The notes under the pieces are model-generated. The model worked only from the letters and a program-made list of their open reading frames with translations. It made no database searches and was not told where the DNA came from. The translations under genes and the position numbers were made by a program. From positions 27,605,249 through 27,669,248 of the forward strand of contig OZ038423.1 in NCBI GenBank assembly GCA_964036155.1: 64,000 nt of DNA. Direction: 5' to 3'. Below are positions 933 to 63,994 of the stretch, in pieces (the stretch's first letter is position 1; each line of letters begins with the position of its first letter). This DNA is from Diploscapter coronatus (Eukaryota; Nematoda; Chromadorea; Rhabditida; Rhabditidae).

Positions 933-976
933 CTGTATTGGAGAATAGGGTCAGAAAAACCGGACGGGATATTTGA
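933..976 (-). promoter_or_regulatory. Bipartite PSE/21U-like motif copy
   Basis: Minus-strand reading has CGTCCGGTTTTT then CCCTATTC (block 945-966, 22 nt). It lies in the tpa-1 3' flank. Role inferred from similarity to the other copies. Confidence 0.4.
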
Positions 977-1679
977 TATTTTGAAAAACTATATATGACT
1001 AATAAGGTTTGGAGAATCTTCAAAGATTTTCTCGAGAGATACGAATTTCAAAATCCAAAGTTCAGAGATAGAATATCCAATGATAAACGAAAAGTCTTAC
1101 AAAGAAAAACTAAAAAGATACAAATTTCCGATGAGTTTACTTTTCAGAGACAAAAGTTTCATTTTAGGGATACAAAGGCAAAATATTGAGGGATTTTCTA
1201 ACTACAGCTTTCTAAGAAAGATAATTTCTAAAAATAGCAACAGATTTTGATGAGAATAAAATACTGAGCAGATGAAAATTCCCCTAATGAGAGTTCTAAT
1301 TCACGAATTCAAGAGGGGAAAACCCGCGAGATGCATTATTTAATGAGCCTTTCCAAGTAATGAGAATGTATGAAAATAGATGGAGAAAAATTCAGCAAGT
1401 TTTTCACACTGATGAGATCTTATAAAAATTCTTTTAAGTTTTAAATGACATTTATAACTTGCGATGATCTAAAATAATCTAGAAAATTTGAATTAGCCTC
1501 TAGGAAAATTGAAATAACTTCCAGAAAACTTCAAGTAATTTTTAGAAAGCCTCAAATAAGCTGCTCTAGATAGCCTCTAGATTAAATATATTCCAAAAAA
1601 TGTTCAATAACTTTCAGAAAAGTAAGAAACCCTAAGAAAACTGCATATTCTGATTCATAGGAATAGGAAAAGCTAAAAT

Positions 1680-1930
1680 GAGAAAATTTTTCCTTCTTAA
1701 GAAGAGATTTCCTCTTTGCAATGTTATTCTGTCGAGGACTGTCTTTTCTTTTCCTCATACTATTTCTCGTTTTCTCTCTTTTCTCTTTGCTATTTCCTAT
1801 ATTCATTCTTGTTTCGATTTTTTTCTTTCTCTCTCGATTTCAACTGTCTCTAATCGTATACTTTCTCTTGTATTGTATCTTTACGAACTAGATACATGTC
1901 TATATTCCTTTTCTTTGGACCCTCTTCAAT
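1680..1930. repeat. Polypyrimidine array with ACTATTTC-like unit
   Basis: Pyrimidine-rich on the plus strand with repeated TTTCTCT and TACTATTTCTC / GCTATTTCC words. One of the dispersed arrays built on a degenerate 26-28-bp unit. Confidence 0.45.
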
Positions 1931-2439
1931 ATCTATAGTCCTACAGTCTCCAAAATATTACATCATCTGCAGAATGAACCTTGGATCAACCGGTAAAAGT
2001 CATATCTCAACTTTCATCTCTGAAACGGTTCTTTGAAAGTCCTTTGTTAGGAAATAATGTTCCAACGAAGCAACACAACAATAGTAAGGAATTTAGTGAA
2101 AACATTTGAAAAATTTTTTAAATTTAGCAAACATTTAAAACAATCCATATTTTTAATATTTTATTCTCGAATGATTACGGCATTTTCTGAAAATTAACAT
2201 AAAATATGTCGCGGATTGACTATTATGTGCACGAATAAAACATCAAGAAAATATCACAAAATTACAATGATCAAAAGAAATTCGTTCTAAATATTTGTCA
2301 GAATTAGCATATTTTTGCGTAGGGGCGTCATTTATTTATTTCAGAAATTAAGTTTTACGCCACTACGTCAAATTACAGTAGCCCTCATCATGATAAAATA
2401 GTTTCGTTGAAAATCGTAATACGTTTTAGCGTAGAATAA

Positions 2440-2515
2440 ACGGATTTTCAAACATTTTCAAGCGCACCCTTTGCAAAATGCTACTTTTTGCAAAGTGCGC
2501 ACATTTTGAAAATTG
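2440..2515. repeat. Imperfect hairpin in the tpa-1 3' flank
   Basis: GCGCA-cc-CTTTGCAAAA (2462-2478) pairs with TTTTGCAAAGTGCGC (2486-2500) across a 7-nt loop, with a 2-nt bulge. Outer ATTTTCAA segments can extend the stem to about 75 nt. It could be a MITE relic, a terminator-type structure or a pre-miRNA-like hairpin; nothing distinguishes these here. Confidence 0.45.
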
Positions 2516-3705
2516 TCACAACGATAGAAGCTAGACGGATGGGCGTGTACAAAATAAGTTTGTGGGTGATATGGCGTTCAAAGTATCGATAGTTGATGAA
2601 TTTCCAAAAATAAATCTAAAAATAATGTATCTACGAATTTTCTAGTACAGCATTTCCGAAAATTACACTCGATTTACTCGTTGTTTAACATATATCAGAG
2701 TTGAGTGAACTTATAGCTGAATTGTCAAGAAAGTGAGCTGCTGAAGTTGACTGCAAATCTCCCGTCAAAACCTCGAAATTCACTTTTTTGTCAAAAATCG
2801 ATTTTTTCGGTAAAAATTTGCAGTCAAAAATAAACACTTTTACAATGTAAAATGATGATTTCGGCCCGAGAATGGAGTACCAAAAGTCGATAAAATAGAA
2901 ATCTTAAAAATGCAATAAGGGTAAAATTTTCAGAAAAATAGAAATTTCAAAATTTTGGACACCTGTATCAATCGAATCCAAGAGAAAAATAGAAATTTTA
3001 GGAAAATAAATGATTTTTCGATAGTTGACAAATGCCTGATCGAGTCAATAGTGAATGAGTATCTCTTTTAGAGGCTATGATTTTCTAGAAATACAGCTTT
3101 AGAAAAGTACTTATACTTTTTAAAACATTATTTTTAGTACTTTTCCAACCAAATACAACATTTCGAGTGAAAAATAGTGCACACAACCTTTTTATGAATG
3201 ATTAGACGATAAAAATAAGAAAAATTATTATAAATAAAATAATTTCGTCAATTTTTTCAGATTAGGTTTCAAAAATCTGCGTATTATGGCCAAATGTAAT
3301 GAAAGAATTGGAATATTTTCGAGGGAAACATTTTCAGCAAAAAAACGTTTCTTTTTCTTCAAGGAAAATTATCGCTATCAGCCCGGCTAAATTGAGCTTG
3401 AAAATCGCCCAGAAAATGTTTGGGCAATTTTTATGCAATTCTATCTTTCGAGAATTCATGAAATGGCGATTTTTTTGCAAATCATTCATCAGTTTTTTTT
3501 AAACTAGTCAAATCTCCACCTCATTAAATCTCATTTCAAGTACTACTTTTGAAACATTAAAATACAAGAAATTTCGGTACTTTGAATTGCAAAAAGCAAT
3601 CATTATTCATTTTTTCATAGAAACAAATCATTGTAGTTCAAATACCGCAATTTCAAGAAAGCTCAAATTCCAGTATCCCTTTTCCACCTACCGTAATCCA
3701 CCTCC

Positions 3706-32304
<28,599 letters not shown>

Positions 32305-32417: not shown

Positions 32418-32773
32418 TTCTCTGAAATTGAAAAAATTAGTCTTAAAACCTTGAAAGATTGCGTTTCAGGAATCCGATAAATCGAAATATTTTTTCAAGG
32501 GATTGATGTTTTGAGCATTAAGCTAGATTGAATAAGTTTTATTCTATTAAAATAGAATAAAGATCATAAAAAAAATGAATGAGCTTAATGAGATCCGATG
32601 GGATTGAATAATTTTTAAAGTTTCGTTAAATAAGAAAAATTTTCAGAAAAGATAATCTTGACAAAGTCAAAGAATAAAAGAAAAAAAAGCTAAAATCTCT
32701 CTAAAATGAAAATAATAATTTACCAAATCGCACAAATTTTGGCTTAGCCTATTTTCTTTAAATTAGGCAAAAA

Positions 32774-32815
32774 CTCACCCCAGACGGTTTTAAATGCCTA
32801 ATCTTTAGCATGGGA
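32774..32815 (+). promoter_or_regulatory. Bipartite PSE/21U-like motif copy
   Basis: CAGACGGTTTT then TGCCTAATC, block 32781-32801 (21 nt), followed by TTTAGCATGGG. Confidence 0.5.
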
Positions 32816-33346
32816 TTAGAGAACTTTCTCAGAATCTTCGAATGGAGCAAAATTATTATAGAGAAAAAATAGAGAGATGAACGAACTAAATTAGGGGTAG
32901 AAGTCTGAAGAAAATAAAAATAAAGACTCGGCACTCATCCCTTATTAGTGTCCCAATATACTGAACGATTTTCTAACCCTATTTTTAATATAGGATGATA
33001 TAGTCGATAAAAAAGGAATCGAAAGAGAACTTATAATTTACGTCAGTCGTTTTCCATATATTTTAACATGGGGAGAGAAAGAGTCTGTCTGAATATATCT
33101 GAGATTAACTAATTTAGATCTCTTAAAGGATGTAATTATATGTACATTTAAAGATGCTAAATGATGGAGTAAAGACGAGAAATAAAAAAATAAAAAATAG
33201 GAAATGATGAAAAGATGGCACCATAAAATATGTATTTAGATTTCTTTAGTTTATCGTATGAACACTATCAAATAATGAGACATTTTGTGAAAATAAATGG
33301 TTTTTAAGACCGAGTCTATGAGAGAATCGGCTCTCTATAGAGAGAA

Positions 33347-36737: not shown

Positions 36738-36780
36738 CTCATGATAGAAGATAAACGAGTAAAACCGGCTAGCCTATTTT
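36738..36780 (-). promoter_or_regulatory. Bipartite PSE/21U-like motif copy
   Basis: Minus strand TAGCCGGTTTT then CGTTTATC, block 36751-36771 (21 nt), followed by TTCTATCATGAG. Confidence 0.45.
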
Positions 36781-37352
36781 CACTTCCTTATGAATTTCAA
36801 GATCGAGCACAAAGATCTTCTTTTCGAATAAATTTTCTGGATGGTCAGAAAGGGTAATTTTCTGGGTTTGCAGCGAGAAAGTTATGCAGTCATACCTTAC
36901 AGTAGAAATTTAGGAAAATTGAGTTTTTGAGGGAGCTCATTACGATGTTTCATGCAAAATTTTGATGAATTTAGAAAATTAGAATAAATATATTTCAAAA
37001 TAATATGAAGGAAATTAATTTTTTCGAAGGATAATTCTTAAGGGAAATGTGGTGTTGAATAATTTCTAAAAAAAATTGTTTAAATTATAATTTGAAAGTC
37101 TGAGTCTATTAAACATTTTTAGAAATCAGTCTCATATCTATAAAAAAGGCGTATTTTTGTCGAAGAAAACATTGCCCCGAAGAAACAGGGCGCCTTTCGA
37201 AAAAAATAAAAGAAGACCCCCGATAAATTGAGCCAATCAGGGCGAAATACAAGGGAAATTCATGAATCCGGCTCTGCTTAGACCGGAAATCGGACAAAAG
37301 TTGAATTAAACCGGAAAACCGAGATTTTTTCAATTTGTTCCAGATTTAAAAA

Positions 37353-37393
37353 ATGATCCCAACCATTTTCCCTCGTCTATCTTTTATCATCGG
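37353..37393 (+). promoter_or_regulatory. Bipartite PSE/21U-like motif copy
   Basis: CAACCATTTT then CGTCTATC, block 37360-37380 (21 nt), followed by TTTTATCATCGG. Confidence 0.5.
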
Positions 37394-37903
37394 ACAAGAT
37401 AAAGAATTTTCATAGAGAACTGAAAGCGGGGGTGGAGTTGACTTTGAAAGGACAAAATGATCAAACTCGGGATTTCAAAGGATTGTCCCCAAAATTTAGA
37501 ATTTCCAGAAAGATCAAAAGTCGAATTTTCGAAATTATGCACTTATGCACTTTTTGTCAAAAATTCGATATTTAGAAAATAGAAGACTTAAGCCTAGAAT
37601 AAAATATTTTTTCTCAAAATTCATATTTTTCCCCAAATTCTTCAAGAAGGGTAGGTATCAAAATTTCCTCAAAAAAATCGAGTCTAGTATGGAATCAGAC
37701 AAGAAGTTCCGGGATTTTTGCGTAAAAAATTTCGACCGGATATCCTTGTTTCTGCTCGAATTTAACATCCAGTGAAGAATCGAAACTCAAAATTTACCTA
37801 CAAAAATTGAGCGCTCGAAAAACATATCTATCTGGAATGACAAGAACATCAAAATTTCCTTTTAGAGCTTTGTAAAATATCTATTCTCGCGAATTACTCA
37901 AAA

Positions 37904-37945
37904 ACTATTCCAGACGTTTTTAAAGGTCTGCGTTGTATCAATGCG
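37904..37945 (+). promoter_or_regulatory. Bipartite PSE/21U-like motif copy
   Basis: CAGACGTTTTT then GGTCTGCG, block 37911-37931 (21 nt), followed by TTGTATCAATG; the right half is weaker. Confidence 0.4.
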
Positions 37946-39336
37946 TAAGTGAAATTTTAGTTGTCTACGTTTGCACTTCGAAAATCTACCAATTAAAAAA
38001 TGAAATATGAATTTGAGAGCTTTGCTAAAACGAATAAAGAAACGCAAATAAATTCAAAGGTTGAGCCGAGCGGAGTATGAAATTTGGAATATGAAAATAG
38101 CACTAGAAAAAGGGCTGGAAAAAGTAAAGTAATAATAAAGATAATAGGTAATTTCTGCCAAAAATGAATGCATATTTTGTCATAAAAAGTAAAAAAAAAA
38201 ACTAATAAGTACAATTTTAAAGAACTTATAATTTTGAGAACAAAGTATCAGATTCGTGATGTAAACACTTTTGCGATGAATTGATAAAAGGTAGGATCAG
38301 GCTAGACTGAGAATATATCGGAGCACGTCAAAAATCCGAAACTACAAAGTATTCGTAAATAAGAGGGTTGAAAGAAGCCGAGAAAGAGCCAATAGCATTT
38401 GAAAATAGGATATCAAAAAGGCAAAAATCTAACAAATAGCTTATAGAAACAAGATAATAAAGAAAAATGTTCCATTTTCATCTCTAACTCTACGAGTTTG
38501 CAATAGAAAAAGCCCTCTCCTAGATATAATGAGAATATTCCTGGAAATAGCGTTGGATTCACATAGGGTTTTGAGAAAAAGAACTCGTTTAGATAGTGTG
38601 AAGAAAATGGAGGAAGTTGGAGAAAACATTATTAGAGAGCTTGAAAAAGTGGGAATATTCGACGAAATAGTTTTAGATTTTCAGAGAGTGGAGAGTAAAA
38701 TATGATGGTTAGAGGGTACGAAAAAAGTGCAAAGACGCAGACAATCAGACAACCAACTCTTCGGACCTGCAGAGTGGATTAGCACCTCAGGCATGATGAG
38801 GATGAGATCCAGTTAGGAAGTATTGAATAATGAGAGAGCATTAGAGAAATAAGCTGTTAGAGAGGGAGAGAAGATATAATAGAAAAAGGAATAGAGAAGA
38901 AAAGTGATATGATAATAAGGCTTGTAAAGATTAATTTGGTTAAAAATTATGCCTGTTGATTTTTAATCATATTCTCTATCGCTAGATTAGATGGAAAACT
39001 GGATATTCAGATCTGTAGGTTCAAAATGATAGTCCAATGAAAAGTAAGTAAAGACAAAAGCCTAACTTTGAATAAAAGATTCTTTTTAAAGAAAACAATA
39101 GTTAATTAGAATAGACCAAAATATATGATAATCCCAAGATAAAAGAAAGGAGAGAAGTGTTGCAATTTTAGAGAACGAAAGAGAAAGAAGGGAATTTAAT
39201 CCTGATTGTGAGCTGTTTGTCAGCAATTTTATACGACAAAGTGTGACATCTAATCGAAGATGCTTTATCCCTTCAAATCTGTGAAAGAGCTCATACATCC
39301 GTGATAAAATGATAAGGTCAAACTAAAAGAATGCTA

Positions 39337-39378
39337 TTTATGCCAGACGGATTGAGATTCCTAGCTTTCATTATTAGA
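39337..39378 (+). promoter_or_regulatory. Bipartite PSE/21U-like motif copy
   Basis: CAGACGGATTG then TTCCTAGC, block 39344-39364 (21 nt), followed by TTTCATTATTAG. First of four copies in about 400 bp. Confidence 0.4.
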
Positions 39379-39423
39379 GAAGAGATTTTCTAACCTTCTA
39401 AAATTTTCACGATTACGCCAAAA

Positions 39424-39462
39424 GTATTCTAGCCATTTTCAAGACCTATTCTTTCATGATAA
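39424..39462 (+). promoter_or_regulatory. Bipartite PSE/21U-like motif copy
   Basis: CTAGCCATTTT then GACCTATT, block 39429-39449, followed by CTTTCATGATAAG. Confidence 0.45.
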
Positions 39463-39508
39463 GATAGTTTCCAAGTGTCTAAAAATTGCAGTTCGATCGA
39501 AGTAAAAA

Positions 39509-39547
39509 AGTTATCACAGCCATTTTAGCTCCTATCCTTATCCTTAG
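39509..39547 (+). promoter_or_regulatory. Bipartite PSE/21U-like motif copy
   Basis: CAGCCATTTT then CTCCTATC, block 39515-39535, followed by CTTATCCTTAG. Confidence 0.45.
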
Positions 39548-39692
39548 CCAAAGATTTCATAGCTAAATCCCCAATAAGGTCACGAAGAGGTGTTAAACTT
39601 ACAAACAAGTAGCATTAAAACGCAATATGAATTATTCGCATCCTGAAGTATAATCCGAATTTTAAAGGGCATCGAAAAAAGATGTCTCTAGT

Positions 39693-39735
39693 CACGTGTA
39701 TAAGGATAGGTCACGAAAATCGGCTGGGCTATAAG
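39693..39735 (-). promoter_or_regulatory. Bipartite PSE/21U-like motif copy
   Basis: Minus strand CAGCCGATTTTC then GACCTATC, block 39706-39726 (21 nt), followed by CTTATACACG. Confidence 0.5.
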
Positions 39736-40893
39736 ATAAAAGAACATTTCGTTCTGCAAAGAGTAAATCCTGTAAAGTCAACAATGTTCTACGACGAGTC
39801 TTGCGACAAAGTTCATTGATTCATCGTTTTTCCTTCAAGAATAGATTTTTAATGAAAATAGTAAGTAGGCTCAAGAATTGTAGAAAATAGAGCCTGAATT
39901 TTCAAGTAAATATTATTTTCAGGCGATTAAAAAATCTGGCGTGAATTCAGTATTTGCGTAAAATCTAAAACTTGAAAATTGTGGGGGTGAAAAGGAGAAA
40001 AAGATGAACTGATCGAATTACCTGAAGAGTCAACTAAAAAACTCACTATAGAAAAGAAACTGTTCGTTCCAGGGAAGAAAGATCGAATGGTTGAAAACAC
40101 AAAATTACCTGGGTTAGTTACAAAATTCTGGTAAATTTTGGGCATTTATTTTAAATTAGTTAATATCAAGGTTTTCAAATCAAAAAATTAAAAACGATCA
40201 ACATGGATTGAATTATTTGACTATGTTTCAGATATTTGTTAAATTCAGAGAATTGAAGAGTCTAGCCGACACCAAGAAGTTGAACACTCAAGAAATCAAA
40301 AGTAACCTAAATTGATTTGAAATGGCTCGAACGTGTTTCAAAATTTCGTTAAACTTAGGTATGATTAGAATGAGAGATAGTGCTTCGATACAGGAAACTT
40401 CATAAACATTTTCCAAGAAAAGCTTCGGAATGATGAATGCTATTCTCGTCTTTCGAGTGTCTACATAAGAAATGTCTGTCAATCAAAATAGATACAGTCA
40501 ATGTTATTGAAAGAAGTAGTTTGAAAATGTTTCGAGGAATGGTTAAATTCCTGAACGATTGCCAAAATTGATCAAATTTGGGTAAAGCAAGTTCTCGCAT
40601 AATTAATCTACATTTTTTGAAAGTTTATCCATTTCTGAAGCGAGATAGCGCCGATAAATTAGAAAAAAACGGGGTGAATTTTCCAAGAATCTGATAAAAA
40701 TGCTGTCAAACGAAATACATTCTTGTTATTTCAAAACACGCTCGTATTCTATCAGAAAATTCGCAAGTAAAAGCAATAAAATAAAATTTGGAGCAGAAAA
40801 AATTCCTTCGCCTTGTCAATGTCAAAATGCGCATCCGAGTCCGACTCAACTAAAAAAAACCACAAACCTTGTAAAACAAAAATTCGAATTCTC

Positions 40894-40935
40894 GATATCC
40901 CAACCATTTTCTAGGTCCTATCCGTAATCATAAAA
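40894..40935 (+). promoter_or_regulatory. Bipartite PSE/21U-like motif copy
   Basis: CAACCATTTTC then GTCCTATC, block 40901-40921 (21 nt), followed by CGTAATCATAA. Confidence 0.5.
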
Positions 40936-42239
40936 CCAGAGATAGATTTTCTTTCTAAAGAGAAACCCCAAAATTCGATTGATATTTGATTTGGCTAGAA
41001 TAAAGCAATCCTCTCGGCGCGCAGCAACTTTCGTAGAAAACGACTAAAATAGTGAGTTTCTGCGAAAATCGACAACGAAATAGCGCAAAAATCGGGTTGA
41101 TTGCATTATTTTTGACAAAAATAAACTAATTTTGATTTTTTCTCGATCGCCTAATCCACCGAGCCATTAGCCAATTGTCTAAAGTGATTACAAGCGAATC
41201 TTGGAAATTGGCAAAAATGGAACAGAATGTGAAATTCGACGGGACGAACAAAAAGCATGAGCAGAGATTGAATTAGTTCGAGGAAAGTGCGCGAAAAATT
41301 TCAGGGGAAGAAATGGGGAAATAATTATTTGTACGAATTTTTTCTTGGATAAAAATTATTTCTACGTTATCGAGACCTGAAGAGGATCAAATTAAATTAA
41401 ATCAAATCTTTATGAATTAAAAAAAAATTGAATAACCACTTGGCTATTGAGGAAAAATCCAAAATTAAGGGAAAATCTCCAAATCGTCTCCGTAGATTTC
41501 CGAAGGTTTGCCAAGTCTCGATTAGCTCACGCTTCTCTGGTTCAGCAAAGTAGTGCAAAAAAATCATGCGCTCCACGAGCAAAATAGAGGCAGTCAATTC
41601 ATTCAATTCTTTTTTGACTCATGGCAAAACGTGGAAAACAATTGGTGGTTTTTAAAGGATTCTAGATTTTCGATCTTTATAGATTTTCTAGATCTTGACT
41701 AGAAAGAGATAAAAAAATATTAGATCAGGAAAATTTATTATACTGTTGATTTTCGAGAAAAAAAATCGTCCAACATATTTAGTGAATCTTTCGAGGTTAC
41801 TAGACTTTTTATTCTAGTTCTAGAACAACGAAAACATTTAGGTCAGAAAATTCAAACTGAAAAAATGATATAGGTTTTCATAGAATACTATTATTTGAAG
41901 GAAAAAAACGAAGATTTAGTCCTACCCTGGCACTTAGAGAGCTTGCTATCTTTTCTATCACGGGGAAGCAAAAGCAAGACATGAAGATTCCAATGAGATA
42001 CACCACATACTACACCAGAAATTTGCCAAAGACTAAAATACTATCCCACTTCATTTGTGTTTTCCATTCATGACACAAAATTTGCAAACTTGCATAATTG
42101 AATTTGAATAAGTAAACCATTTCCGGCTATTTTGGTTGCTGTAAAATGTAAGTTACATCCTTTGGAAAAGAGTTTCAAGTTTTCAGAGAGTCCAGAGAAA
42201 AGAGTGGTCGCGCCACGAGGAGCTTCAATTTTGCTACTT

Positions 42240-43907: not shown

Positions 43908-46293
43908 TGATAAAATTTAGGGATCAAATTCAGATCCATTCAAATATGCAAGCATCATATTCGTAGAGGGTCTAAGAAAACGATAAATAGCAAAAATTCC
44001 AGAAACTTGACAAAATGATTCTGATCTTTAGTATGTAGATTTCAGAAAAAATAAAGAATGACAAGTTGAAATAAATGTTCTATGACATTTTTCAGCATAA
44101 ATTCAAGTTTTCAAAGAAAGAATCCAATTTGAAAATATTCCTTTCAAAATTTTTATAAGCGTTCTAAAAAGATAGATATAAGTTTTCCAAAATTAAAAAT
44201 AATGAGTATTCATTCCAAAAATATTCGTTCCGGATATTTTTACCTATTTTCAGAGCAAACAAAGGTTAACGCGTAAAAGTTAGAAAAAGAGATATCCATA
44301 AAAGGCTCTCCCTTCGAGTAATGAAAAGAGGATTCATTAGAAACTCGCAAATGTCAGATAGGTAAGCGCGGCGGGGGTGGGCAAAAATAGAGCATAGCAG
44401 AAAAAGATTTAGAGATAAAAAATGGCATGAAGAGCGGGAATTCCTAGTTCGGATATTCAATGCCACATATCTAATCTGAGCTCTATTGCCTATGTCTTGT
44501 CACGAAATCACTCTATCGTGTTCGTTAACGAAGAAAAGCAGAGGTGCGACATGATTAAGAGTGTTTTACCGATTTATTCATAATCACAAACGAGGGATGG
44601 GATATTCACCAAATAGTCTTTCGAAACTAGACCGAAATGGGCCTAAAATCGATATGGTATAGAGCTTTAGCCACGTCCACTGACAACTTGCAGTCATTGT
44701 GCAAGGAAAAGTTCTTTATTAATGGACACTGGAGAGTGAGAATGGGAATTTTGCTAGAGTAAGATTTATATAGATAAAAAGGCCTCAAGATTATTCAAAT
44801 CCAAATGAAGTCTAGATAAGATTTGCATAATAGAAAGAAATTACAGGTTTATTCAGAACGGGAAATCTAGCTGAATTTTTGGATTTTCAGATCTGATTTT
44901 ACAAAATTGTTGGATTTATCAACAAAGTTTTCCTTCAAATAAAATTTTCCAAAAGAGATCTCCGATTAGAATATTCCAATTTTATCACTGATAATTGATA
45001 AGATATCAAAATAAGCCCATCCTAACAAATCCGATTGTCTGGCTGAGATTAGCATATAAACATAGCTTTATCTAGCAACAGGCTAAAGATACTAGGGATC
45101 CTCTGAATATGCAAAATGTAAAATGCACATAGAATAAGGAAGCAGACGAGTAAACGAGGATATAAGTGGCTTCCTGCAAAAGATAAGATATCCCTTTAGA
45201 AAGAATGAAATTGATTGGCCTTAAATTTGCATTTCATTTGGATAAATATAGGCCAAATCTTCATGATAAGCGAAAAAATACTAGCTCTTATCAGTTTTTC
45301 AAATAAGTTTCAAAGTTTCGGTAAGTAAAGTTCGAATTTGCAGGATATGCTTTTAACTAACATGAAATATAAGCAAGCTTGAAACTTGAAATTGCTAATC
45401 AGAGTCTAAGAATGATTACAAATTTAGACAAGTTTCCAAGCGACCTTATAGCATGTTTCTATATTTAGTATTACAATGCATTCAATCAAATCTAATTTAG
45501 CAATAACTTTAGCATTCACATTTTTTCTCTAAAATTCTCATTTTGCTACGTAAAATATCCACACGAATTGAAAAAAGGGTAACTAGTCAGAAAAGTAGAA
45601 AAATCCTGATATTTGACTCGTTTTAAAATAAATATTCATTCAAAAATGCCAAAAAGCACATCTCTTTACGCAACAAATTCATAAATGAGCAATTAGTCAG
45701 GGAAAGCGGCATCTGAGAGGAGATTTTGGTGCTGATGAAAAGTCGCGTGGAAACGGCAGCGAGGGAGTAAAAAAGGAGGCAGATCTCGAAGTCTCGAATA
45801 CGGCAAAGGGGAAAAGCCCAGCAGAGGAGAAAAGGAGAATGTGGGAATACGGGATGAGAAATAGAAAAAGTGAGGGTGGAGATATTACTAGAAGAGGAGA
45901 AATATATAAAAAAGGATGAGATAATTCTTGATCAGAAAATAGCGATAAAAGATTATTCTTCTATCAGAAAAACAAACACAACGTAAAATTATCATTTTAT
46001 TGAAGCTTTCTAAAGGGAATGTAATTTCTATAATAGAAGTTCACAGAATATGTGGGATGATTTTTCCGATGAGTCTAGGACGAAAAAGATATGTAGGTTT
46101 TAGAAGTTCAGTCTAATTCAAATGAATCTCAATTTATGAAGGATCTCTTATTTTCAATGAAGCAACCAAGAAATTAGTCCACTAATTTCGCGATAAACAA
46201 GCACTAATCGCTCTAAATTCAATTTTTCTATATTTCACGATAAACTCTCCAGAATTGGGACGTTTTCCATCGCAAATATCCCTTATGCGGTGA

Positions 46294-46333
46294 ATTACCC
46301 CAATCAGTTTTGCACCATCCTTAATAATGGAAC
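46294..46333 (+). promoter_or_regulatory. Bipartite PSE/21U-like motif copy
   Basis: CAATCAGTTTT then CACCATCC, block 46301-46321 (21 nt). Confidence 0.35.
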
Positions 46334-46703
46334 GAGAGATGGTGACGAATTTTTGCGGTGGAAAAGTTTCGAGTCTGCAAGTCCCCCACCCTCAAGTCCA
46401 AAGTATTCACAACTGGTTACATGTACAACTTAGCCTTTTCAATATTTAGGGTTTTGGCTACAAATTTTAAAATTTCTTATCTACAATGAGAAATACATTC
46501 AAAAACAATTCGGTCTATTTTCTAAAACTTCAATTTTTTCTGAAGTGTGATTTACAGGGTAATTTCTCACACTAAAGATCGAGATAACAATTATGAGTTG
46601 TGGGCAGCTTCAGTCTAGGCTTAATTTTGTAGATTTTCGCTACAATTTTCCGGAGGGATTCTAGTTTTCTGTTTTGTTGAAAGAAAAAAACATTGAAACG
46701 TAC

Positions 46704-46740
46704 CTGAATTGCCACCAGTTCGAAGGCTCCGAAGTGACAT
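46704..46740 (-). CDS. Weak candidate first coding exon, gene unknown
   Basis: Within a GC-richer block (46700-46850) an ATG at 46740 opens MSLRSLRTGGNS plus one base, followed by the donor GTACGT. An acceptor-like TTTTCAG lies about 100 bp upstream. The phase would fit tpa-1 exon 4 or exon 6, but both are more than 26 kb away. A perfect TGACGTCA palindrome (CRE-type site) sits in the same block at 46793-46800. It could be a distant promoter of tpa-1, or chance. Confidence 0.2.
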
Positions 46741-54700: not shown

Positions 54701-57700
54701 CATCATTCCAAAGTTCTAGAAACCTACGGCTGATATTTAAAATATCTATTTATAAAAAAAAAAGGCTCAGTAAATGCAGAAAGAAGAATTTTAATTAAAG
54801 TATCGAATTACACAGATTGTCACGAAGTATTGTGAAGGTAAAAATTCAAATTATAAAAGTCCACGTTGGAACCTACATCAGCAGTTTAAATAGCCCTATT
54901 CTTGAAGGAATCATTCTAAATCTTTGCTGTTCACAATAAGAAGTGTTCTCGAATTGCAGCAAAATACCTCGCGAGAAAAGGGAGTGCTCTTTTCTTTCTT
55001 TTATGGTCCGGTTTTCACGAGTTTTGACTAGGAAAAATATCTCAGACTGCTTTCCAGGTCTATTCCCCAACACATAATATTTTTCTCGAACTGTTCTGAA
55101 ATTGGTGCAAGCAATTTTCGGATTACAAAATATTTTCCGTATTCGTCAAGGTGGACCAATTTTAGCCAAAATTTAGTCCAAACAAAATTCGGTACTAATC
55201 TCAAAATTACTGAAGACCATCATATTTCAGCGAAAAATGACCTATTTTAGCCGTAAATTTTTGGTGTCTCATTGTCCGAGTTTTCTGATAATCTCAAAAT
55301 GATTGCAAAATTTCCCATTCAAAAACCAGTTTTTGAGTATTTTGGCGATTTTTGAGAAGCTCGGTGTTTTTGAAAGGTTCAAAGCAACCCGTCAAACTTG
55401 TCATTTTTGAGAGATGAGAAAAATTTAACGTTCTGGAAAAGAATATCAAAAGCCTCTAGTCTAGATGTAGAATAACAATAGAATATCAGAGCATAATGAA
55501 ACCTGTAAATAAGAGTATCATGAATAGTAGGTTTCAAGAATTTTACGAGTTACTCAGTATTTCAAAAGTGTTACTTGCGTAAAATACAGAAAAACTAAAA
55601 AAATATTCAAAAATTCGAAATTAATTCCGGAAAATTCTAAAAATCTTTTCACCCGTCCGAAAGCAGAAAAATGTCCCGTGACGCCAATTTTATCAGTAGT
55701 TTTGTCAGCGAAAATCGGGTGAACAATTAATGACAGGAATAAGTTCCCGTGCTCATTACCTGTTTCTCAAAATCATCTCATTCCATAGTTAAGGATAGCC
55801 CCCGAAAATCATATGGAATAATTTTTGATCATTATCAATAAACCATCTATTTTATCAGCTACTTCTGATTAAAGAAAAAGTCCGCAACGCCTAACTTGCA
55901 AATGTCCGTAATAAACAGAAGGAGAGCAGGAAAATTACACAAATGCGCCAAATGAGTCGTAAAAATTCCGAGAGCTCAAGACACAAGTGAAAAACCTCGT
56001 CCTTGATTAAAGATAAGGTGAGAAAAACAGGTTGATGTAATTTTTGAAACCCTGATTCAGGAACATTTTTGGGTAAACGTAAAATGAAAATAGTCTCGAG
56101 GAAGCAAGTTGATAATTTCAACGGGGTCTGAGCCATACCGGTTAATTACAGAGTAATAAAGGATCGTAAAATTTTTGAGGTTGCATTTTTGTAAAAAATG
56201 AAAATGCTAGATTTTACGGTGATGAAAAGTAAAATCAATTTTAGTTTTGGAAAAGATAGAAATAATATAGAAAAAATGGCTGAGATAGACTATCATTTTA
56301 CCGCTATCCGAAACGTATATTAAAAACTTTTGGTGAAAAATAAACAATAGTAGCTAAAATTCAATAGAATTCGGCTATTTTTACGAGGAAACTCGTCAAA
56401 TTTCGCGCGCAAAGATTCGCTTTCAAAGCGTCGTAAATTTCCCATGAAAATGTGTGAAACAAGCTTTACGCTACTCATTTTTTCCGAACCACATGGTCGT
56501 TGTCAGGAAAATGAACGACTTTGAGAAGCGCGTAAAAATAAAAATAAGTCGTACTTTACAAAAGATGATAAAATTAGTCAAAATTATCATCCCTTACTGC
56601 ATTTTGGGAAAGGTAAATAAAATTCAGTACTTTACAAAATTCGACGTGTTTTATCAGAAAGTTATCATATCGTAACGCTCAACATACATAAGGAGAAAAA
56701 TAGAACATGTACTTTAAAAATTCAAAAATAGTAAGTTTCTCGATACTTTATCCCATAAATATCCCCACTCTGATAAATCCATTAACGGAAATGATAAATA
56801 GTTTGCAGTAAATCAGAAACTAGAGCGTGGGAAGATATGAAGGAACTGCGCAAGACGACAAACATTGTTTGCAAATTAATAAGGCCACCCTTCCTATCTA
56901 GCGTACCAAAAATTTTTGCCCTTTCAAACCCACTTACCTACCAAATACCTAATAATCGCCGTATTGACCTTTTCCTTTATCAAAATGAGCTTGGATCAGA
57001 AATATTTCAGGCTATTTTGGCTTCTTATACTTGAATATAGTAGAAAGTAGCTTTCGATAATTTTTGGTATCAAAAAGGTTAGGAAAATATCCCAGCCTGT
57101 ATTCTTTTTCTGTCCTAAAATATGGAGTTAGATTTTTCTGACAAACTATAATCGATTATACCCTATTTCGTCATAATCTCCTTCCCATTGCAAAATTTTT
57201 AAGAGCGTAGAGAAATTCTTACGACAGGGTGAAATTGTGAGAAAATAGTGTGGGAATGATAAGCAAATCTGACATCAATCAGTGAACAAAACTGATAAAA
57301 TCGAAAAATGCTCCTTCAAAAAGGGGTTAAGCCTAACAATAAGTCAAATCATGAAGGGGTTAAACATGTGCAAAATGGGAAATTATAAGTAAGTAGAGAT
57401 ATAATAATTTGATCGATCGTTTTTAGGCGAAAGGTGTCAATCAAATCAAATATCAATAACTTAGTAGTCCAGAAGTTATAACATCTTTTCTGAAGCATGA
57501 AAAGTGAATCAAACAAATTCTGGTTTGGTAAGAAAGAAAAACCATAAGACTTGGGGATCAATGCGACTCTCTGATCAAAATGTCTTCAATTTGAAACCTA
57601 CGAGACAAAGTTATATAATGAAGTCTTATCATAATCAAAAATACCGTACTATTTCTAACCATCACAAATATTCTAGTCTCAAAAAGGCACTAACCTTATA

Positions 57701-60700
57701 ATTTCTGACTAAGCACTCAGCATTGCTTTGTTTACTTTGAAAGGTAATAAAACTCGGTACGTTTGAGTACGCCCGATTCCGATTATTCAGTCGAAATAAA
57801 TCGAAAAGCCCATTAACCCATTCACAAATCGGTCATAAATATTCCTCGTATCAAAATATCGTGATTTGGCTTGATTTAAAGGCACAAACAAGAAAATTTT
57901 AAGGAATTTGAGGAATTTCTAAATATGTTTCGAAATTTCATTAAAAACAACAAAAATATAGTTGAAGATAGATCGGGTATAATTATCAGTCAAAACTTCA
58001 GACGATCAATTCAAAGAGGTTTGAGCTATCACTTTAGACAAGTTTTAAACTATTCTAATACGTTTGAAGAATTACTAGTCTTAGTCTAGGTTGACTGGAG
58101 TCTGGTTAAGATGCGAAAATGTGGAAAAAATCCCCATTAAAATTTTTCCCAATTTCCATTGCAACACGTGAGCCATAAAATTTGTCTAGAAAATTGACAA
58201 GCTCAGAATTTTAAAACGGTAATAAAATTCCCTACTTCTAATTTGATAATTGATCATTTGCTAATAAAGCCCCATATTCCTAGGTCATAAAATAGCGCGC
58301 AACTAATTTTGGGAAAAATTTTAACGAGTCTGATTTTGGTTCCTAATAAAGTCTCAGTAATTACTAGATTAGTAAGTAAGAAAATATCGCAACTATTAGA
58401 CAGGAGCTCTAAATAGGTATGAGATTTTTAAAGTGATTTTTGAAAAAAAAAAATGTTAAAATCAAATAACAGCGTGCAATGAGGGTAGAGATTTTAATGA
58501 ATCTATGATACTTTCTAATGATTTTCCACACTATTAAAGAGCGATCCTTATAAGTTTGGGGTTTTCCAAAAATTCTAAAAACGAAACTAACCGAGGCGAT
58601 GGATTTAGCGGAATCCCTGGGAGACGTCGGAGAGCGAGTTGCCGTCGAGGCTGGGGACGACGCAGTCGGGTAGACGCTGAACATTTTCGAAGTTTAAAGT
58701 TCATCTTCACAGAAAATCTCACGAAACTATGGGATTTTCAATAAAAACGTTAAGGTGGAAACAAAATTATTGTTTTGCCAATCTGTCATTGTAAGAGCTT
58801 TTCTGAGAAACATATCAGAATAAAGATGTAATGTTTATCATCTATGATACGAGAAAAGGTGTAGGATACTCTTTCGAACGCATGTAAAGGAAAATTTTTA
58901 AATCAACCATGAAAAATTTCTGCAAAAAGAATAAACTCAACCAACCCCTTATCATTCTCATTGTCGTTGTGGTCCTTGGTTTGAATGATCAGCGTGCGGT
59001 TCAGGTCTTCGGAAAGCTGAAATTTCGAAATAGCATAATTTCTAAATGTTTGCACTTTTCTTCAAAAGTTAGCATATTTTAAAATCTAGCATAATTTCCT
59101 ACTTGATCAACCAACTTGGGCTTCTGTTTGTAGGCATTGATGATACCGATCGCAGGAGAGGGCGAGTTCTTCAGAATCGGCAGAGCGGAACGTCTGAAAA
59201 ATATATTATCCAAATTTATAAGAATGATAAACATGGAACATTGAAAGCAGCTGCTTAATAACTGAAGTTATGTAAAAACATCTTGAAACGTAGAATTAAT
59301 TCTACCTTCTTTACATATTTTTTACTTTTGGTGATTTTGTAGCTATCTACAGGATATCACTTTTCGAAAGTTCAACCTTATAAACTCCATTTTTGAATTG
59401 TAAAATCAAAATTACTTTGACTCTTTTGCCAACTCGTATAGCCTCATAGAAAACCCGTCATTATGTGTAAAGTCCTTCAGGCATAATTTTTTGCAAATGT
59501 TTTCACATATGTTTATCAGATCAATTCATAGAACTTCATTCTTAGACTAAGCATTTTTGAAACTTATCAATTGAGCTATCAAATAATTTAAGAATTACAC
59601 AAAGGTTGATAGAATTGCTCAGAAATTTAAAATTCGCTAACCTCGTAAACCCTGTGATGCCGTTCTCCTTTTCCGCTTCGAGTTTCTCCTTTTTGGTTTC
59701 TCGCACCGAAATTCGACCTGGCTGCCGTCGTTGGAAAGTCGGCTGACTTTGAGGTTGACTGTGTTGAATGATTATTGGTCTCTGAAAATGAAATCATTCA
59801 TTTTTTGAATCATAAAAATTCTAAATTTTCGAAAAATAGGCTTCAGGAAATTTCGAAAAAAAATCAGGTATGGACAGACTTTTAGCGTAGTCACGATATT
59901 TTTATGCATTGTCGAAATAATTCCTATCTTTATGGAAGAAAATAAGCTTCTGATAATTTTGAAAAGTCAAGTTAGCAACTGTCGTGACTCTTCAAGGCAA
60001 AAATAGGAAAAATTTGATCTTTAATTTTCAACTCACGGGAATTTGAAACAATTTACAAATTCAATACCTGCGCCGGTTCGTTCCGTTCTTCTCCACTCGA
60101 CGAGCTGCCGACCGAAAGCGATGCCGACTTCGAGAGAGGGGCGGGCTGAAATGAAAACTTTCAGATTTTCGCTTACTCTCGGTCTACAGTATTACGCGAT
60201 TACTCACTGAGTCAGTACAATTTTCAAAGAAGTTAAGACATTTTGAAGCGTAATTTTTAAAAATTATTTTCAAAGATTTTGATATTTATGTTGTAGGGTT
60301 AGACGAGTATTCATTCACTGAATCGGCGAAATTTCCAACGAAGTTAAGAATTTTTTGAAACATCTATTTTTACTGTTAGAAATAGTTGGTTTTTGACTTT
60401 ATATTACCAGGCTACTCACTAAAGACGATATCCAAAGAATATATGAAACTCTTGAAATATATCCCTTCAAGTATTTTGTGCTTATTTTAGGTTTTGATAT
60501 TACTCGTTTACTCATCGCGGATTTTAAAATTCGTTTAATCTATGCAATTCTGAAACTCGCCTTAGCCGGTTCTGATCTCCTCGACTTGGCGTTGACTACA
60601 ATTTCGTCCTGCTTGATTTTCTGCTGTCGTTCGAATTGGCGCACCTGAAACTAGCATTTATTAGAGGAGAATCAAAATTACGATCTGACTATCCAAACTA

Positions 60701-63556
60701 GAAAATCAACAATTTTTTGGGAAATTCTAGAACTTATTTGATTTTTGATACACGAATTTATCTAATGGCTCGTAGAAATTATCGCTACATATGCAAAGTT
60801 TTTGAAGCGCGTCTCAAAATTCAAAATAATCAATTTAGAACGTCCTTAGATGAAATCTAGCCGACATTGCTCTGCGAAAAGTTATGACTATTAAATCCAG
60901 AGTTGATAAAACTCGACTTTTATAAATTCTATCAAACCAACGTGATCGAGTATTTTCTCTGCTTCCTGCCCGGTGACCCCGAGCAATTTCATCTCCATTT
61001 CGGGATTGCGCTCTCCATCCAGAAGAACGTGGCGGAACAGTTTGGCCTAAATTCGATAATTTGTTTAAAAATTCCATAACGAAAAATATCGTGTAAAGTT
61101 AAAAAAAGACCTGAGAGGATAAAAATATTTAATTTTGCACCGTTTCAATTTGGGAAATTTGCAATCTTTTACCTTTTTGAAGAGTTCAGCCTCTCGCTCC
61201 AATTGTCGTTTCTTCTCCTCCGCTTCAGCCATCAGACGAAGATGTTCTTCCTGAAGATTATAAATTTTTAACTTTATTGATTTTTAGGCAGATAAAATTT
61301 CAAAGTATAGACTTGCTCTTCATTTTACCTCAAGGGTTTTTATTTAATTTTCAAAAATTAGAAAAATGTGTTTCGTAAAAAAATTCCATCTAATTAGCGT
61401 GAAGTTTCTCACAATATCATGTTGACGCATAATCAAGTGTAAAAGAAGCGAAATTCATTTTTCAGGTTTTAATTTGCAAATTTGACCTTCTCCCGCATTT
61501 TCTCCCTGAGTCGTCGTTCCTCGTCGTCTCTGCGTCTCTGCAGCTCCTCCTCATCCCTGCGCACTCTTTCCTCTTCCAATCTTTCCCGCTCCATCTGAAC
61601 TCGTTCCAGTCTGAAATTAGCATATCATGTAAATTTCGAGGTAGTTTTTATTCGAAAATTAAACTGCGTTGGATAAAATAGATGGTTACACAAATAATTC
61701 GATTTAATGAATGAATGTATGAAACGTTGAGTTTTGAATTTCAAATATTGTTATGACGTCCCATACATCCAAATCGTTTATCAAAGTATTGGCAAAATTT
61801 TCAATATTCGTTAAAACATTGAAGCTTATGTTCTTTTCTTAAAAATCAGAAATCAAACCTTCGTTTTTCGGCAATTTGCTCATCATAGACACTCTGCGGG
61901 ATGGTGACGGATTGTCGTCTTTCACAGGTACTTTGGCTATTGCTTGAAGATGCCCGATCTCTTCTCAATTCCTCAGAATCGCGCACCGATGAAAACGTGC
62001 TACTGGCTCTGAAAAAATAAGCCTCAGGAAATCGATATTTTTATGAATTTTCTATAAAGCTGTTTCCTCATAATTATCTTCGGGAATTCTTCAAAAACTT
62101 CAAATAAATCTGGTCTTTCCCAAAAAAAATCAAGTGTTTTATTCGCTAGTCGAAGTTTAGCCGTAAAATTAAAACTTTAGAAAATCGGTGTATAAAATTA
62201 TTTTATGAAACATGAAAATCTTAAATCGTGTCACAATTCTTATTTTAATCAAAACCTTATCAATTTGCCCTAATAAAATTCCTTTTCGAATCATATTACA
62301 ATGATCTTATGATTTTACCTGCCCGTATGATTCCTGGACGATGGATCGCTTGGAATCGAATTGGACGTCGATTGGAGATGTCCATTTTCGGCTCCATTCA
62401 CCTCCATAGATTTACAATATCCCATTTCCCTCTGCATCTCTGACTCTCGCCACGTTTCCTGATGCTCGTGCTCTAGTTCGGAGTAGTGTCTCTGGAATAA
62501 ATCGCAATAAAGAAAACATTCGTCTGTCTAAAAACAAGAAAAATCTATGGATTTTATAATTTATTTGACGATTCTGTTAAACGAAATGAGACTCATTTTT
62601 TCCCAATAGTAATGCATAGCGAAATATTTTTTAAAAAATTGAAATTTCAGAGTCACTTCTTGAAAAATTTACCTGATCAGTAAAATCGGCCCCTCGATTT
62701 GCAGACTCGTTTGAGTGTTGTTGCTTCAAACAGTGCGGAGGACACGTCCACCCATAGCCGGTTTGTTCCAATTGGGTTAGAGGACAGTCGGCCATGCTCT
62801 GAAAAATTATTTTTAGAAAAAATTTAAATATCCTAATTAATTTCTAGGGATTCGAAATCGATGTTTCAAAAATCTCATATCCATCGTCGAACTAAATACA
62901 TTTGTTAATAACGATATATAGATGTTCAAAAGTGAAAATTTAGTTAAATTTAGCATACCGTAAACCCAGCAGGCGGTTGTTGCGGTTGAGTTTGCGGAAC
63001 GAAGGATACTGGATAGGCGTATTGCGCATAAGGGTGGGGCCAGGCGTAGTAAGGCTGCTGAAAATAGAAACAAGTATTTTCGAGCCAGAATTTGATTTTT
63101 CAGACTTCGTTTAAAAATTTACAAATCCGAAAGCTCAGCTGAGAAAATCGCTAGAAAATTTTGCCAAATACGCATTTTGTTTGTGATAAGTCATATATCA
63201 AATTAGGTGAACGTTACAAAAATTGCTGATCTTCAGAGAAAAATATTTACACGCTAATTTTTAGAGTTTTTATAAAAAAAACAATATACTCGGAGTTTCA
63301 AATTTATCGATTCCCTTACCTGCCCGTTGTCCCGTCCAGTCTGTATCTGCGTTCCATATCCGGGTGGGAAGGCGATCGGCACGGCTATCGGGATTGGTGC
63401 TCCGCTCGGTCCGACCTGATGATTGGGCATGTTCGGCAGGGCCCTTGCTTGTTCCGCATGAGGATATCCATTCGAATTACTGCCTGATTGACAGTTCACC
63501 GGAATAGTTATAGGATAGCCGCTACTCATCACGGCCGAAAGCGTGTTTTCGGAAAT
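48633..63556 (-). CDS. Unrecognised coiled-coil protein, 5' end open
   Basis: Twenty-one exons with fully consistent phases (2379 nt, 792 residues plus TAG), high..low: 63556..63320, 63057..62959, 62798..62673, 62491..62319, 62008..61859, 61610..61487, 61250..61173, 61046..60942, 60644..60561, 60145..60068, 59781..59642, 59193..59103, 59016..58946, 58676..58592, 51759..51678, 51375..51279, 50407..50299, 50105..50016, 49602..49435, 49067..48969, 48725..48633. Order of regions: P/Q/Y-rich N-terminus, Ser-rich stretch, long E/R/K coiled coil (~residues 250-390), Ser/Pro-rich linker, and a C-terminal part with SPAYRSFNSKRTLDRQNEVL. No enzyme motif, signal peptide or membrane segment is visible. 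The charged helix recalls microtubule/centrosome proteins such as CCDC66 or CSPP1, but helices of this composition look alike and I assign no function. The first exon shown starts at an acceptor; Met at 63529 could be the start or the gene may continue upstream. Confidence 0.85.
53460..54130. repeat. Mixed polypurine then polypyrimidine array
   Basis: The left part is purine-rich (GAGAAATAGTATGGGAAAATG), the right part pyrimidine-rich (CACTATTTCATTTTC and ATACTATTTCATTTTCTCGCC about 79 bp apart, near three units). The two halves are in inverted orientation. Confidence 0.5.
55036..55077 (+). promoter_or_regulatory. Bipartite PSE/21U-like motif copy
   Basis: CAGACTGCTTTC then GGTCTATTC, block 55043-55063 (21 nt). 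Confidence 0.45.
55783..55822 (-). promoter_or_regulatory. Bipartite PSE/21U-like motif copy
   Basis: Minus strand TTATTCCATATGATTTTC then GGCTATCC, block 55795-55815 (21 nt), followed by TTAACTATGG. Confidence 0.45.
57086..57125 (+). promoter_or_regulatory. Bipartite PSE/21U-like motif copy
   Basis: CAGCCTGTATTC then CTGTCC, block 57093-57113 (21 nt); the right half is degenerate. Confidence 0.35.
58319..58360 (+). promoter_or_regulatory. Bipartite PSE/21U-like motif copy
   Basis: GAGTCTGATTTTG then TTCCTAAT, block 58326-58346 (21 nt). Confidence 0.35.
60561..62008 (-). CDS. Coiled-coil core exons of the same gene
   Basis: Five exons encode an almost uninterrupted charged helix: QSVYDEQIAEKRRLERVQ, LEEERVRRDEEELQRRR, EERRLREKMREKEEHLRL and EEKKRQLEREAELFKK. 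It then becomes less repetitive, with KLFRHVLLDGERNPEMEMK and LGVTGQEAEKILDHVRQF. The last segment looks like a small folded or helical module and is the best query for finding the family. The exon ending at 60561 uses a GC donor (AAG followed by GCGAGT). Confidence 0.85.
62673..63556 (-). CDS. N-terminal Pro/Gln/Tyr-rich exons of the coiled-coil gene
   Basis: Three exons encode a low-complexity, probably disordered segment with GYPITIPVNCQSGSNSNGYP, PIPIAVPIAFPPGYG and QPYYAWPHPYAQYAYPVSF. The second exon begins after a CAGCAG tandem acceptor (63055-63060), so one Gln may be optional. The frame is open back to the acceptor at 63557; the first Met is nine codons in (MSSGYP). Whether this Met is the true start cannot be decided inside the window. 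Confidence 0.75.
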
Positions 63557-63950
63557 CTGAAATTTGGCCTTTAAAAATCGAATTTCCTGGTCTTCAAGTA
63601 AAAGACTTGAATTATCAACGAAAAGAAGTGTACAACATAGAACATGTGATAGTTTTTAAGAAATTAAGCATGTTTCAAAGGAATTTGAAATAAAGAAAGC
63701 TTCAATAAGTAAACGCTAACAGCCAGATACGAAAATTTATAATCTCAAGGAATTTGAACTTGAAAATAAGAACCTTTGTTCGATTTGGAATTATTCAGCT
63801 TCCTAACACCTCCAAGAGTATCAGTAACAATACGCCACCTTTCACTAATCCTTATCAGTGAAATCAGACAACAATCAACAATAACGATTATCGAGCAGCT
63901 CTCACGCATTTCAGCATCGTTTCTTCTTAATCTCTCTAAAGTCTCTCGTC

Positions 63951-63994
63951 CTATGATAAAGCATAGAGAGCCAAGACCGGCAGACATAATTATC
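63951..63994 (-). promoter_or_regulatory. Bipartite PSE/21U-like motif copy
   Basis: Minus strand CTGCCGGTCTTG then CTCTATG, block 63963-63983 (21 nt), followed by CTTTATCATAGG. It lies upstream of the last visible exon of the coiled-coil gene, in line with a long 5' intron or intergenic DNA there. Confidence 0.45.

Follow-up and report, generated by a model that had tools for sequence, protein, structure and literature searches.

A stretch of 64,000 nucleotides from the genome of the nematode Diploscapter coronatus (C2:27605249-27669248, hereafter the window) carries 38 copies of a bipartite motif, and the question that this locus raises is what such copies do. An earlier note on this DNA had proposed that each copy drives one 21U-type PIWI-interacting RNA (piRNA) and that the motif is related to the proximal sequence element (PSE) of small nuclear RNA (snRNA) genes. 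The PSE is bound by the snRNA-activating complex (SNAPc), which in nematodes also serves piRNA transcription. The present analysis confirms the relation to the PSE, on the opposite strand, and not the piRNAs: from comparison of sequences, the motif copies are very probably orphan PSEs, and piRNA-type signatures occur in the same DNA at other sites.

The genome comprises 169.7 Mb in three contigs, including C1 (87.7 Mb) and C2 (82.0 Mb). For 5 kb of window sequence there was one counterpart, on C1, found as two adjoining pieces at 92% identity, and a 35-kb alignment of C1 with C2 contained 5.3% substitutions; because of this single counterpart and this divergence C1 and C2 are read as homologs, and they behave as such in a one-chromosome genome. 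The sections covered of a genome review give one chromosome and 170.5 Mb for D. coronatus, and 157.7 Mb for D. pachys (PMC9071541). The analysed DNA amounted to 264 kb: besides the window it included 20 loci, each 10 kb long and chosen for holding a strict match, out of 86 planned regions. Sites were scored with a two-block matrix that leaves the gap free, for which the motif given in the earlier note served as training seed, and those of at least 14 bits were called copies. Fitting and counting used the same 264 kb, and controls were scored with the identical matrix. The strand opposite to that of the earlier note is termed the PSE strand.

The window contains 38 copies (33 at ≥16 bits), 19 on each strand, and the reversed window contains none at ≥14 bits; in the 264 kb, 114 copies were found, against 0 in reversed and 2 in Markov sequence. 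The earlier note, which had seen about 30 copies on both strands, is thus confirmed, and it somewhat understated the number. Genome-wide, the strict pattern CAGNCKGTTTTN{3,10}CTATC gave 176 matches versus 2 for the reversed pattern, and a 3-mismatch pattern gave 2,693 versus 58 for its control. Because the latter pattern recovers just 13 of the 38 window copies (and no other window site), the number of copies is put at roughly 3,900 per homolog, extrapolated from one window. C1 has 89 strict matches in an uneven distribution, with 10 at 24-26 Mb, 8 at 28-30 Mb, 11 at 64-66 Mb, and none at 14-22 Mb.

On the strand of the earlier note the motif reads AAAWTATNCCAGNCKGTTTT-N6-CTATCYTTWAYCATNRGA-NNAGAGATTT, and on the PSE strand (TATGATAAARGATAG)-N10-(CMGNCTGGNATAW), spanning about 55 bp. 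CTTTATCAT belongs to the motif, and a weak third block, AGAGATTT, lies about 19 nt past the start of CTAT. Of the 38 window copies, 24 have CAG and CTATC at a distance of 17 and the remaining 14 at 14-18; the distance of 17 equals the 21 nt that the earlier note had counted from CAG through the final T of CTAT, and the fixed spacing is confirmed. In the core GTTTT the fifth base is T in 82-83% and C in 11%, and the motif includes an unconserved spacer beside T's that are conserved at 82-95%. Conservation stops near -10 and +45, except for weak skew in three single columns (-19, -14, and +89); a longer shared transposon consensus, the absence of which the earlier note had asserted and proposed to check, was not seen beyond these limits. 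Same-strand neighbours within 100 bp formed 19 pairs, at 57-87 bp, versus 3.2 expected (maximum 10 in 2,000 permutations), and opposite-strand neighbours numbered 3 versus 2.6 expected. The spacers of paired copies were no more similar to each other than random spacers.

In the examined stretches the copies occupy long introns and gene-poor DNA. Exon overlap was checked against three exon pieces, and none of the 38 window copies overlapped 7696-7845, 20548-20712, or 6097-6243, the last of which was called by eye and by low divergence (1/147 sites) and is without Pfam match; the earlier statement that no copy lies in an exon holds for these three pieces. A structured RNA was considered and rejected, as no consensus fold was found in 65 copies, nor in shuffled controls, which makes this a weak test; the folding energy of single copies equals that of their flanks.

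Likeness to the snRNA proximal sequence element

Upstream regions of 38 genes were compared with the motif, representing 15 of 75 U1/U2 matches, 10 of 47 U5, 10 of 21 spliced leader (SL)-like, and 3 of 4 full-length U6 genes; the fourth full-length U6 (L010) was left out as a duplicate of L009. These regions were tested first on the strand of the earlier note, where no PSE likeness was found. On the opposite strand, the 3' block of the motif, GNCTGGNATAWTTT, stands near -50 in many U1, U2, and U5 promoters and in some SL promoters. With a complete, unfitted model, the best antisense match lay at -48..-53 in 26 of the 38 upstream regions, versus a mean of 2.8 and a maximum of 8 in 100 rounds of shuffling; by class these were U1 8/9, U2 6/6, U5 10/10, U6 0/3, and SL 2/10.

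For U1, U2, and U5 together, 24 of 25 upstream regions had the match at -48..-53, while column-permuted models gave a mean of 2.5 and a maximum of 11 of 25 in 150 permutations. A less redundant set, with two U5 rows that remain 80% alike, gave 15 of 16, and a model built from the window copies alone gave 19 of 25. On the sense strand none of the 25 had its match at this position, and the antisense best score was the higher one in 19 of 25. Hence the relation to the snRNA PSE is borne out, and the strand that had been assigned to the motif is wrong if the motif is a PSE. Scores were modest: a set of 2,724 random pieces had a 99th percentile of 5.5 and a maximum of 13.8, and 6 of the 38 upstream regions exceeded the former. 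Judged on these matches the element is PSE-like, with a consensus sharper than that of the snRNA genes' own elements.

The U2 gene at C1:79107302 has both half-sites, at 12.9 and 10.6 bits and 26 nt apart; many other snRNA upstream regions match mostly one half. The 3' half of this U2 promoter is TATATTTCA, one letter off the TANGTTTCA tendency of piRNA-like sites, and this closeness is in line with the published view that the PSE's 3' half gave rise to the Ruby motif, adding a further genome that agrees with that derivation. Separately, the promoter of the U1 gene at C1:75756166 (L039) has a strong 5' half (15.2 bits) and a poor 3' half (-1.3 bits).

The motif shares with the nematode RNA polymerase II (Pol II) snRNA PSE, bound by SNAPc/SNPC-4, the two halves, the orientation, and the position at -48..-53 before U1, U2, and U5. 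It differs in its thousands of copies, its stronger consensus, its head-to-tail pairs, and in that no snRNA stands beside the copies examined: the 264 kb gave 0 Rfam matches at gathering score that would mark an RNA gene beside a copy. The 38 elements of the window are given below with coordinates, PSE strand, description, score, and the position and strand of CAG as read in the earlier note.

921..975, +, orphan PSE-like element, 31.5 bits, CAG at 966 (-)
9338..9392, -, orphan PSE-like element, 33.3 bits, CAG at 9347 (+); C1 allele 34.6 bits
13648..13702, -, orphan PSE-like element, 27.7 bits, CAG at 13657 (+)
17146..17200, +, orphan PSE-like element, head-to-tail pair with 17218..17272, 31.0 bits, CAG at 17191 (-)
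17218..17272, +, orphan PSE-like element, pair with 17146..17200, 24.9 bits, CAG at 17263 (-)
17567..17621, +, weak PSE-like element, 14.5 bits, CAG at 17612 (-)
17772..17826, +, orphan PSE-like element, pair with 17834..17888, 23.8 bits, CAG at 17817 (-)
17834..17888, +, orphan PSE-like element, pair with 17772..17826, 28.3 bits, CAG at 17879 (-)
18018..18072, -, orphan PSE-like element, pair with 18083..18137, 35.8 bits, CAG at 18027 (+)
18083..18137, -, orphan PSE-like element, pair with 18018..18072, 22.8 bits, CAG at 18092 (+)
22102..22156, -, orphan PSE-like element, best in window, 45.2 bits, CAG at 22111 (+)
23264..23318, -, orphan PSE-like element, 44.4 bits, CAG at 23273 (+)
23648..23702, +, orphan PSE-like element, 34.6 bits, CAG at 23693 (-)
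25885..25939, +, orphan PSE-like element, 26.9 bits, CAG at 25930 (-)
26560..26614, +, weak PSE-like element, pair with 26617..26671, 16.8 bits, CAG at 26605 (-); C1 allele <10 bits
26617..26671, +, orphan PSE-like element, pair with 26560..26614, 21.6 bits, CAG at 26662 (-)
29333..29387, +, orphan PSE-like element, 38.3 bits, CAG at 29378 (-)
30653..30707, +, orphan PSE-like element, 31.0 bits, CAG at 30698 (-)
32772..32826, -, orphan PSE-like element, 35.0 bits, CAG at 32781 (+)
32953..33007, -, weak PSE-like element, 14.3 bits, CAG at 32962 (+); C1 allele 29.7 bits
36726..36780, +, orphan PSE-like element, 37.0 bits, CAG at 36771 (-)
37351..37405, -, orphan PSE-like element, 36.4 bits, CAG at 37360 (+)
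37902..37956, -, orphan PSE-like element, 20.9 bits, CAG at 37911 (+)
38944..38998, -, orphan PSE-like element, 18.3 bits, CAG at 38953 (+)
39335..39389, -, element 1 of head-to-tail triplet, 22.6 bits, CAG at 39344 (+)
39421..39475, -, element 2 of head-to-tail triplet, 17.7 bits, CAG at 39430 (+)
39508..39562, -, element 3 of head-to-tail triplet, 16.0 bits, CAG at 39517 (+)
39681..39735, +, orphan PSE-like element, 34.2 bits, CAG at 39726 (-)
40892..40946, -, orphan PSE-like element, 22.7 bits, CAG at 40901 (+)
46292..46346, -, orphan PSE-like element, 28.9 bits, CAG at 46301 (+)
46467..46521, +, weak PSE-like element, 16.0 bits, CAG at 46512 (-)
55034..55088, -, orphan PSE-like element, 36.4 bits, CAG at 55043 (+)
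55770..55824, +, orphan PSE-like element, 33.0 bits, CAG at 55815 (-)
55989..56043, +, orphan PSE-like element, 26.0 bits, CAG at 56034 (-)
56999..57053, -, orphan PSE-like element, pair with CAG at 57093, 22.6 bits, CAG at 57008 (+)
57009..57063, +, weak PSE-like element overlapping 56999..57053, 15.2 bits, CAG at 57054 (-)
57084..57138, -, orphan PSE-like element, 33.4 bits, CAG at 57093 (+)
63938..63992, +, orphan PSE-like element, 37.5 bits, CAG at 63983 (-)

piRNA-type signatures in the same DNA

In the sections covered of Beltran et al. 2019, the GTTTC motif peaks 42 nt before 21U-RNAs, piRNA transcription starts 2 nt upstream of the U at YRNT initiators, and D. pachys has P-type piRNAs, i.e., located in introns of active genes (PMC6436959). 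Billi et al. 2013 describe, in the part consulted, CTGTTTCA with a spacer of 35-42 nt, in a tiny unit made up of a motif of about 50 nt and a further 21 nt (PMC3597512). On the strand of the earlier note, YRNT stood at the expected distance in 48 of 114 copies, versus 39-52 of 113-114 in control stretches, and the 40-100 nt after CTAT displayed no GC dip (0.357-0.375 in 92 copies; GC was measured, not melting temperature). With GTTTT in place of GTTTC, no YRNT excess, and no low-GC dip, a piRNA promoter on this strand was rejected, and the claim that each copy drives one 21U-type piRNA did not hold. A SNAPc-type piRNA promoter on the PSE strand was rejected as well: no peak of T or YR, and thus of an initiator, occurred at 44-59 nt, and YRNT with T at 51, 52, 53, 54, and 55 was found in 9, 8, 5, 6, and 7 of 113 copies, summing to 35 versus 35.5 expected from a mean of 7.1 of 113 over offsets. 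By our estimate, a sharp initiator at these distances is possible in at most about a tenth of the copies. As a separate observation, 15 of 113 copies had YRNT on the PSE strand at 38 nt past the C of CTGG, versus 7.1 ± 2.4, which is the best of 108 offsets and is unexplained.

Among 853 GTTTC sites outside the motif in the 264 kb, 115 had YRNT with T at +43, versus a mean of 57.0 (sd 7.6) at the control offsets 10-37 and 50-79. No YRNT peak at +43 was found for GTTTT, GTTTG, GTTTA, ATTTC, or CTTTC. The window itself holds 34 GTTTC-N35-YRNT sites (T at +43) versus 14.6 expected, so that the earlier note was right to see piRNA-type signatures here, yet they belong to GTTTC sites. At +70..+80 the GC content of the 115 sites was 0.287 versus 0.338, a drop that sits where the part covered of Beltran et al. 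leads to expect the pausing dip (PMC6436959). Because the GTTTC sites have both the peak at +43 and the dip, and the motif has neither, piRNA-type loci appear to be present at sites other than the motif, and the GTTTC sites with YRNT at +43 are likely to be real piRNA loci.

Moreover, a stop-free stretch encoding a PIWI domain was found on both homologs (L056/L072), matching Siwi at 1.2e-33 versus Argonaute-1 at 3.9e-14; the two overlap over 294 nt with 1 silent difference. An exon from another Argonaute (L074), taken as control, had similar matches to PIWI and to AGO chains and does not sharpen the PIWI assignment, for which L056 and L072 are the sole basis. By these matches both homologs carry a PIWI-clade gene.

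The motif thus shares with the Ruby motif (type-1) piRNA loci of Rhabditina the location in introns and gene-poor DNA, the use of both strands, and the presence of PIWI, and differs in its GTTTT core, its extra blocks, and the lack of YRNT at +43, whereas the Ruby-type signature is found at other sites. Plectus sambesii and P. murrayi have bipartite SNAPc-type piRNA promoters according to the sections covered of the same study, in which a scan of P. murrayi gave 3,082 sites, of which 39, being non-coding RNA genes, were removed (PMC6436959). The full bipartite SNAPc-like motif at thousands of places is common to Plectus and the present genome; as described there, the P. sambesii motif lies upstream of 21U-RNAs at snRNA-like distance, whereas the motif here lacks an initiator signal at that distance.

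Proposed SNAPc docking and its rivals

The explanation that we tentatively prefer, although it falls somewhat short of being probable, is that the motif is a bipartite PSE of the Pol II snRNA kind whose copies serve as docking sites for SNAPc; the docking role taken by itself is a shade more tentative, and SNAPc binding, docking, and an effect on piRNA genes are all matters that we infer. Thousands of dispersed full-length PSE-like elements would bring SNAPc and associated factors to whole stretches of DNA, where the many weaker half-site promoters (GTTTC, initiator at +40..+43) would exploit the raised local concentration of SNAPc. In favour of this reading are the match at -48..-53 before U1, U2, and U5 genes, with one U2 promoter at 14.2 bits, the lack of Rfam genes in the 264 kb, the excess of same-strand pairs, the PIWI-clade gene on both homologs, and the surplus of GTTTC..YRNT(+43) sites at motif-rich loci. 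Docking is preferred over one RNA per copy because an initiator peak is lacking and because pairs lie 57-87 bp apart, so that transcription from one element would begin within or close to its neighbour. In C. elegans, SNPC-4 binds across piRNA clusters without enrichment at piRNA starts, as PMC6436959 summarizes Kasper et al. 2014, and this coating of piRNA domains (also cited in PMC7884074) would be the functional counterpart of docking; the literature covered describes no dispersed lattice of full PSEs in these domains, unlike here. Rather unlikely, in our judgement, is the wider proposal that a lattice of full-length PSEs, about 4,000 on each homolog and almost none of them with an snRNA gene, brings SNAPc to introns and to gene-poor DNA and constitutes a cis-encoded domain signal choosing where GTTTC promoters work. 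If true, such a lattice would account for SNPC-4 coating piRNA regions while not occupying the piRNA starts themselves. Thousands of orphan SNAPc-type elements beside half-site piRNA promoters make testable how SNAPc spreads over nematode piRNA DNA, with regions coated and single starts unmarked; a limited literature search found no description of orphan PSEs of such kind.

Several observations weigh against docking by PSEs. A match at -48..-53 is lacking in U6 and most SL upstream regions, only one of the 38 snRNA/SL upstream regions reached 14 bits (a U2, 14.2 bits with the unfitted model), and one U2 scored -23 bits; because most snRNA promoters score below 14 bits and some far lower, the PSE of the snRNA genes is a relative of the motif and not the identical motif. 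The genome-wide head-to-tail pattern was found only 10 times versus 4. The co-distribution with piRNA signatures that would favour docking is weak and was tested after seeing the data: motif-rich loci (≥4 copies; 7 loci, 70 kb) held 33 GTTTC..YRNT(+43) sites versus 11.9 expected, and motif-poor loci (≤3 copies; 13 loci, 130 kb) 48 versus 29.5, giving a Fisher p of 0.04 for rich loci plus window versus poor loci and a Spearman coefficient of 0.43 (p 0.054). A short-range link between the motif and these sites was absent (17% versus 18% within 300 bp). Finally, 37 of 672 informative motif positions differed between the homologs (5.5%, 28 copies), versus 4.5% for shifted masks and 7 of 462 (1.5%) in exon pieces. 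Single copies are thus not visibly constrained since the homologs parted, which argues against a strong role for each; many redundant sites, asexual drift, and lost function all fit this absence of constraint.

Lost function is the essence of one rival, which regards the copies as relics of a once-active SNAPc-dependent family now drifting neutrally in an asexual lineage. That the motif diverges between homologs as its flanks do, and exons do not, fits this, whereas the position-specific information, with a free spacer beside strongly conserved T's, indicates constraint at some time, and on the other homolog 25 of 28 copies still score ≥14 bits, an outcome to be expected for most copies under neutral decay at 5% as well; we consider relics improbable. 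Slightly less so, and still unlikely, is that the orphan PSEs are working SNAPc-type promoters, each with its own short, unstable Pol II transcript that is outside Rfam and not a YRNT-started piRNA. The likeness to snRNA promoters in sequence and position would favour such promoters, as would the SNPC-4-motif piRNAs of C. elegans and the bipartite promoters of Plectus reported in the sections covered of PMC6436959; the PSE strand, without T or YR peak at 44-59 nt and with YRNT at 51-55 at its expected level, speaks against them, as do the head-to-tail pairs, in which transcription would be expected to begin within the neighbouring element or close to it.

The motif is also long and information-rich, snRNA scores are modest, and the AGAGATTT block is extra, all of which would suit sites for another DNA-binding protein (e.g., a many-fingered one) sharing part of the PSE by chance; the position of the match in 24 of 25 snRNA genes makes such a coincidence quite unlikely. 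The piRNA promoters of the earlier note are very improbable, as the counts at the motif stayed within their controls whereas GTTTC sites gave 115 versus 57, even though CTG/CGGTTTT resembles CTGTTTC, a PIWI-clade gene is present, and units of 57-87 bp recall the published cassette of about 50 nt plus 21 nt (PMC3597512, in the part consulted). Fragments of a transposon or satellite, to which thousands of copies, some head to tail, might point, were rejected and retain hardly any likelihood, given conservation that ends near -10/+45, unrelated pair spacers, and an unconserved spacer inside the motif.

Host gene and U6 genes

Two of the exon pieces in the window belong to one host gene.

7696..7845, -, host-gene exon piece, novel-type protein kinase C (PKC), C1 domain; PF00130 7.8e-11; PDB PKC chains, best 2.3e-18
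20548..20712, -, exon piece of the same host gene, delta/epsilon/eta/theta-type PKC C2 domain; PF21494 PKC_C2 1.1e-11

By these domain matches the left host gene is a novel-type PKC on the minus strand.

The four full-length U6 genes (L009, C2:73993324; L010, C2:74187623; L011, C1:79304777; L012, C1:79099896) each contain a 54-nt mRNA-type intron (GTAAGT...TTTGCAG) right after ACAGA, a position within the ACAGAGA box. A narrow literature search found no paper on this U6 intron. The other three of the seven U6 matches are pieces of 58-60 nt, and no intron-free full-length U6 was among the seven; these 3' pieces (L013, L014, L015) share flanks with the adjoining full gene L012, as if locally duplicated. 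Between the homologs, the U6 exons differ at 0 of 103 positions and the intron at 14 of 54.

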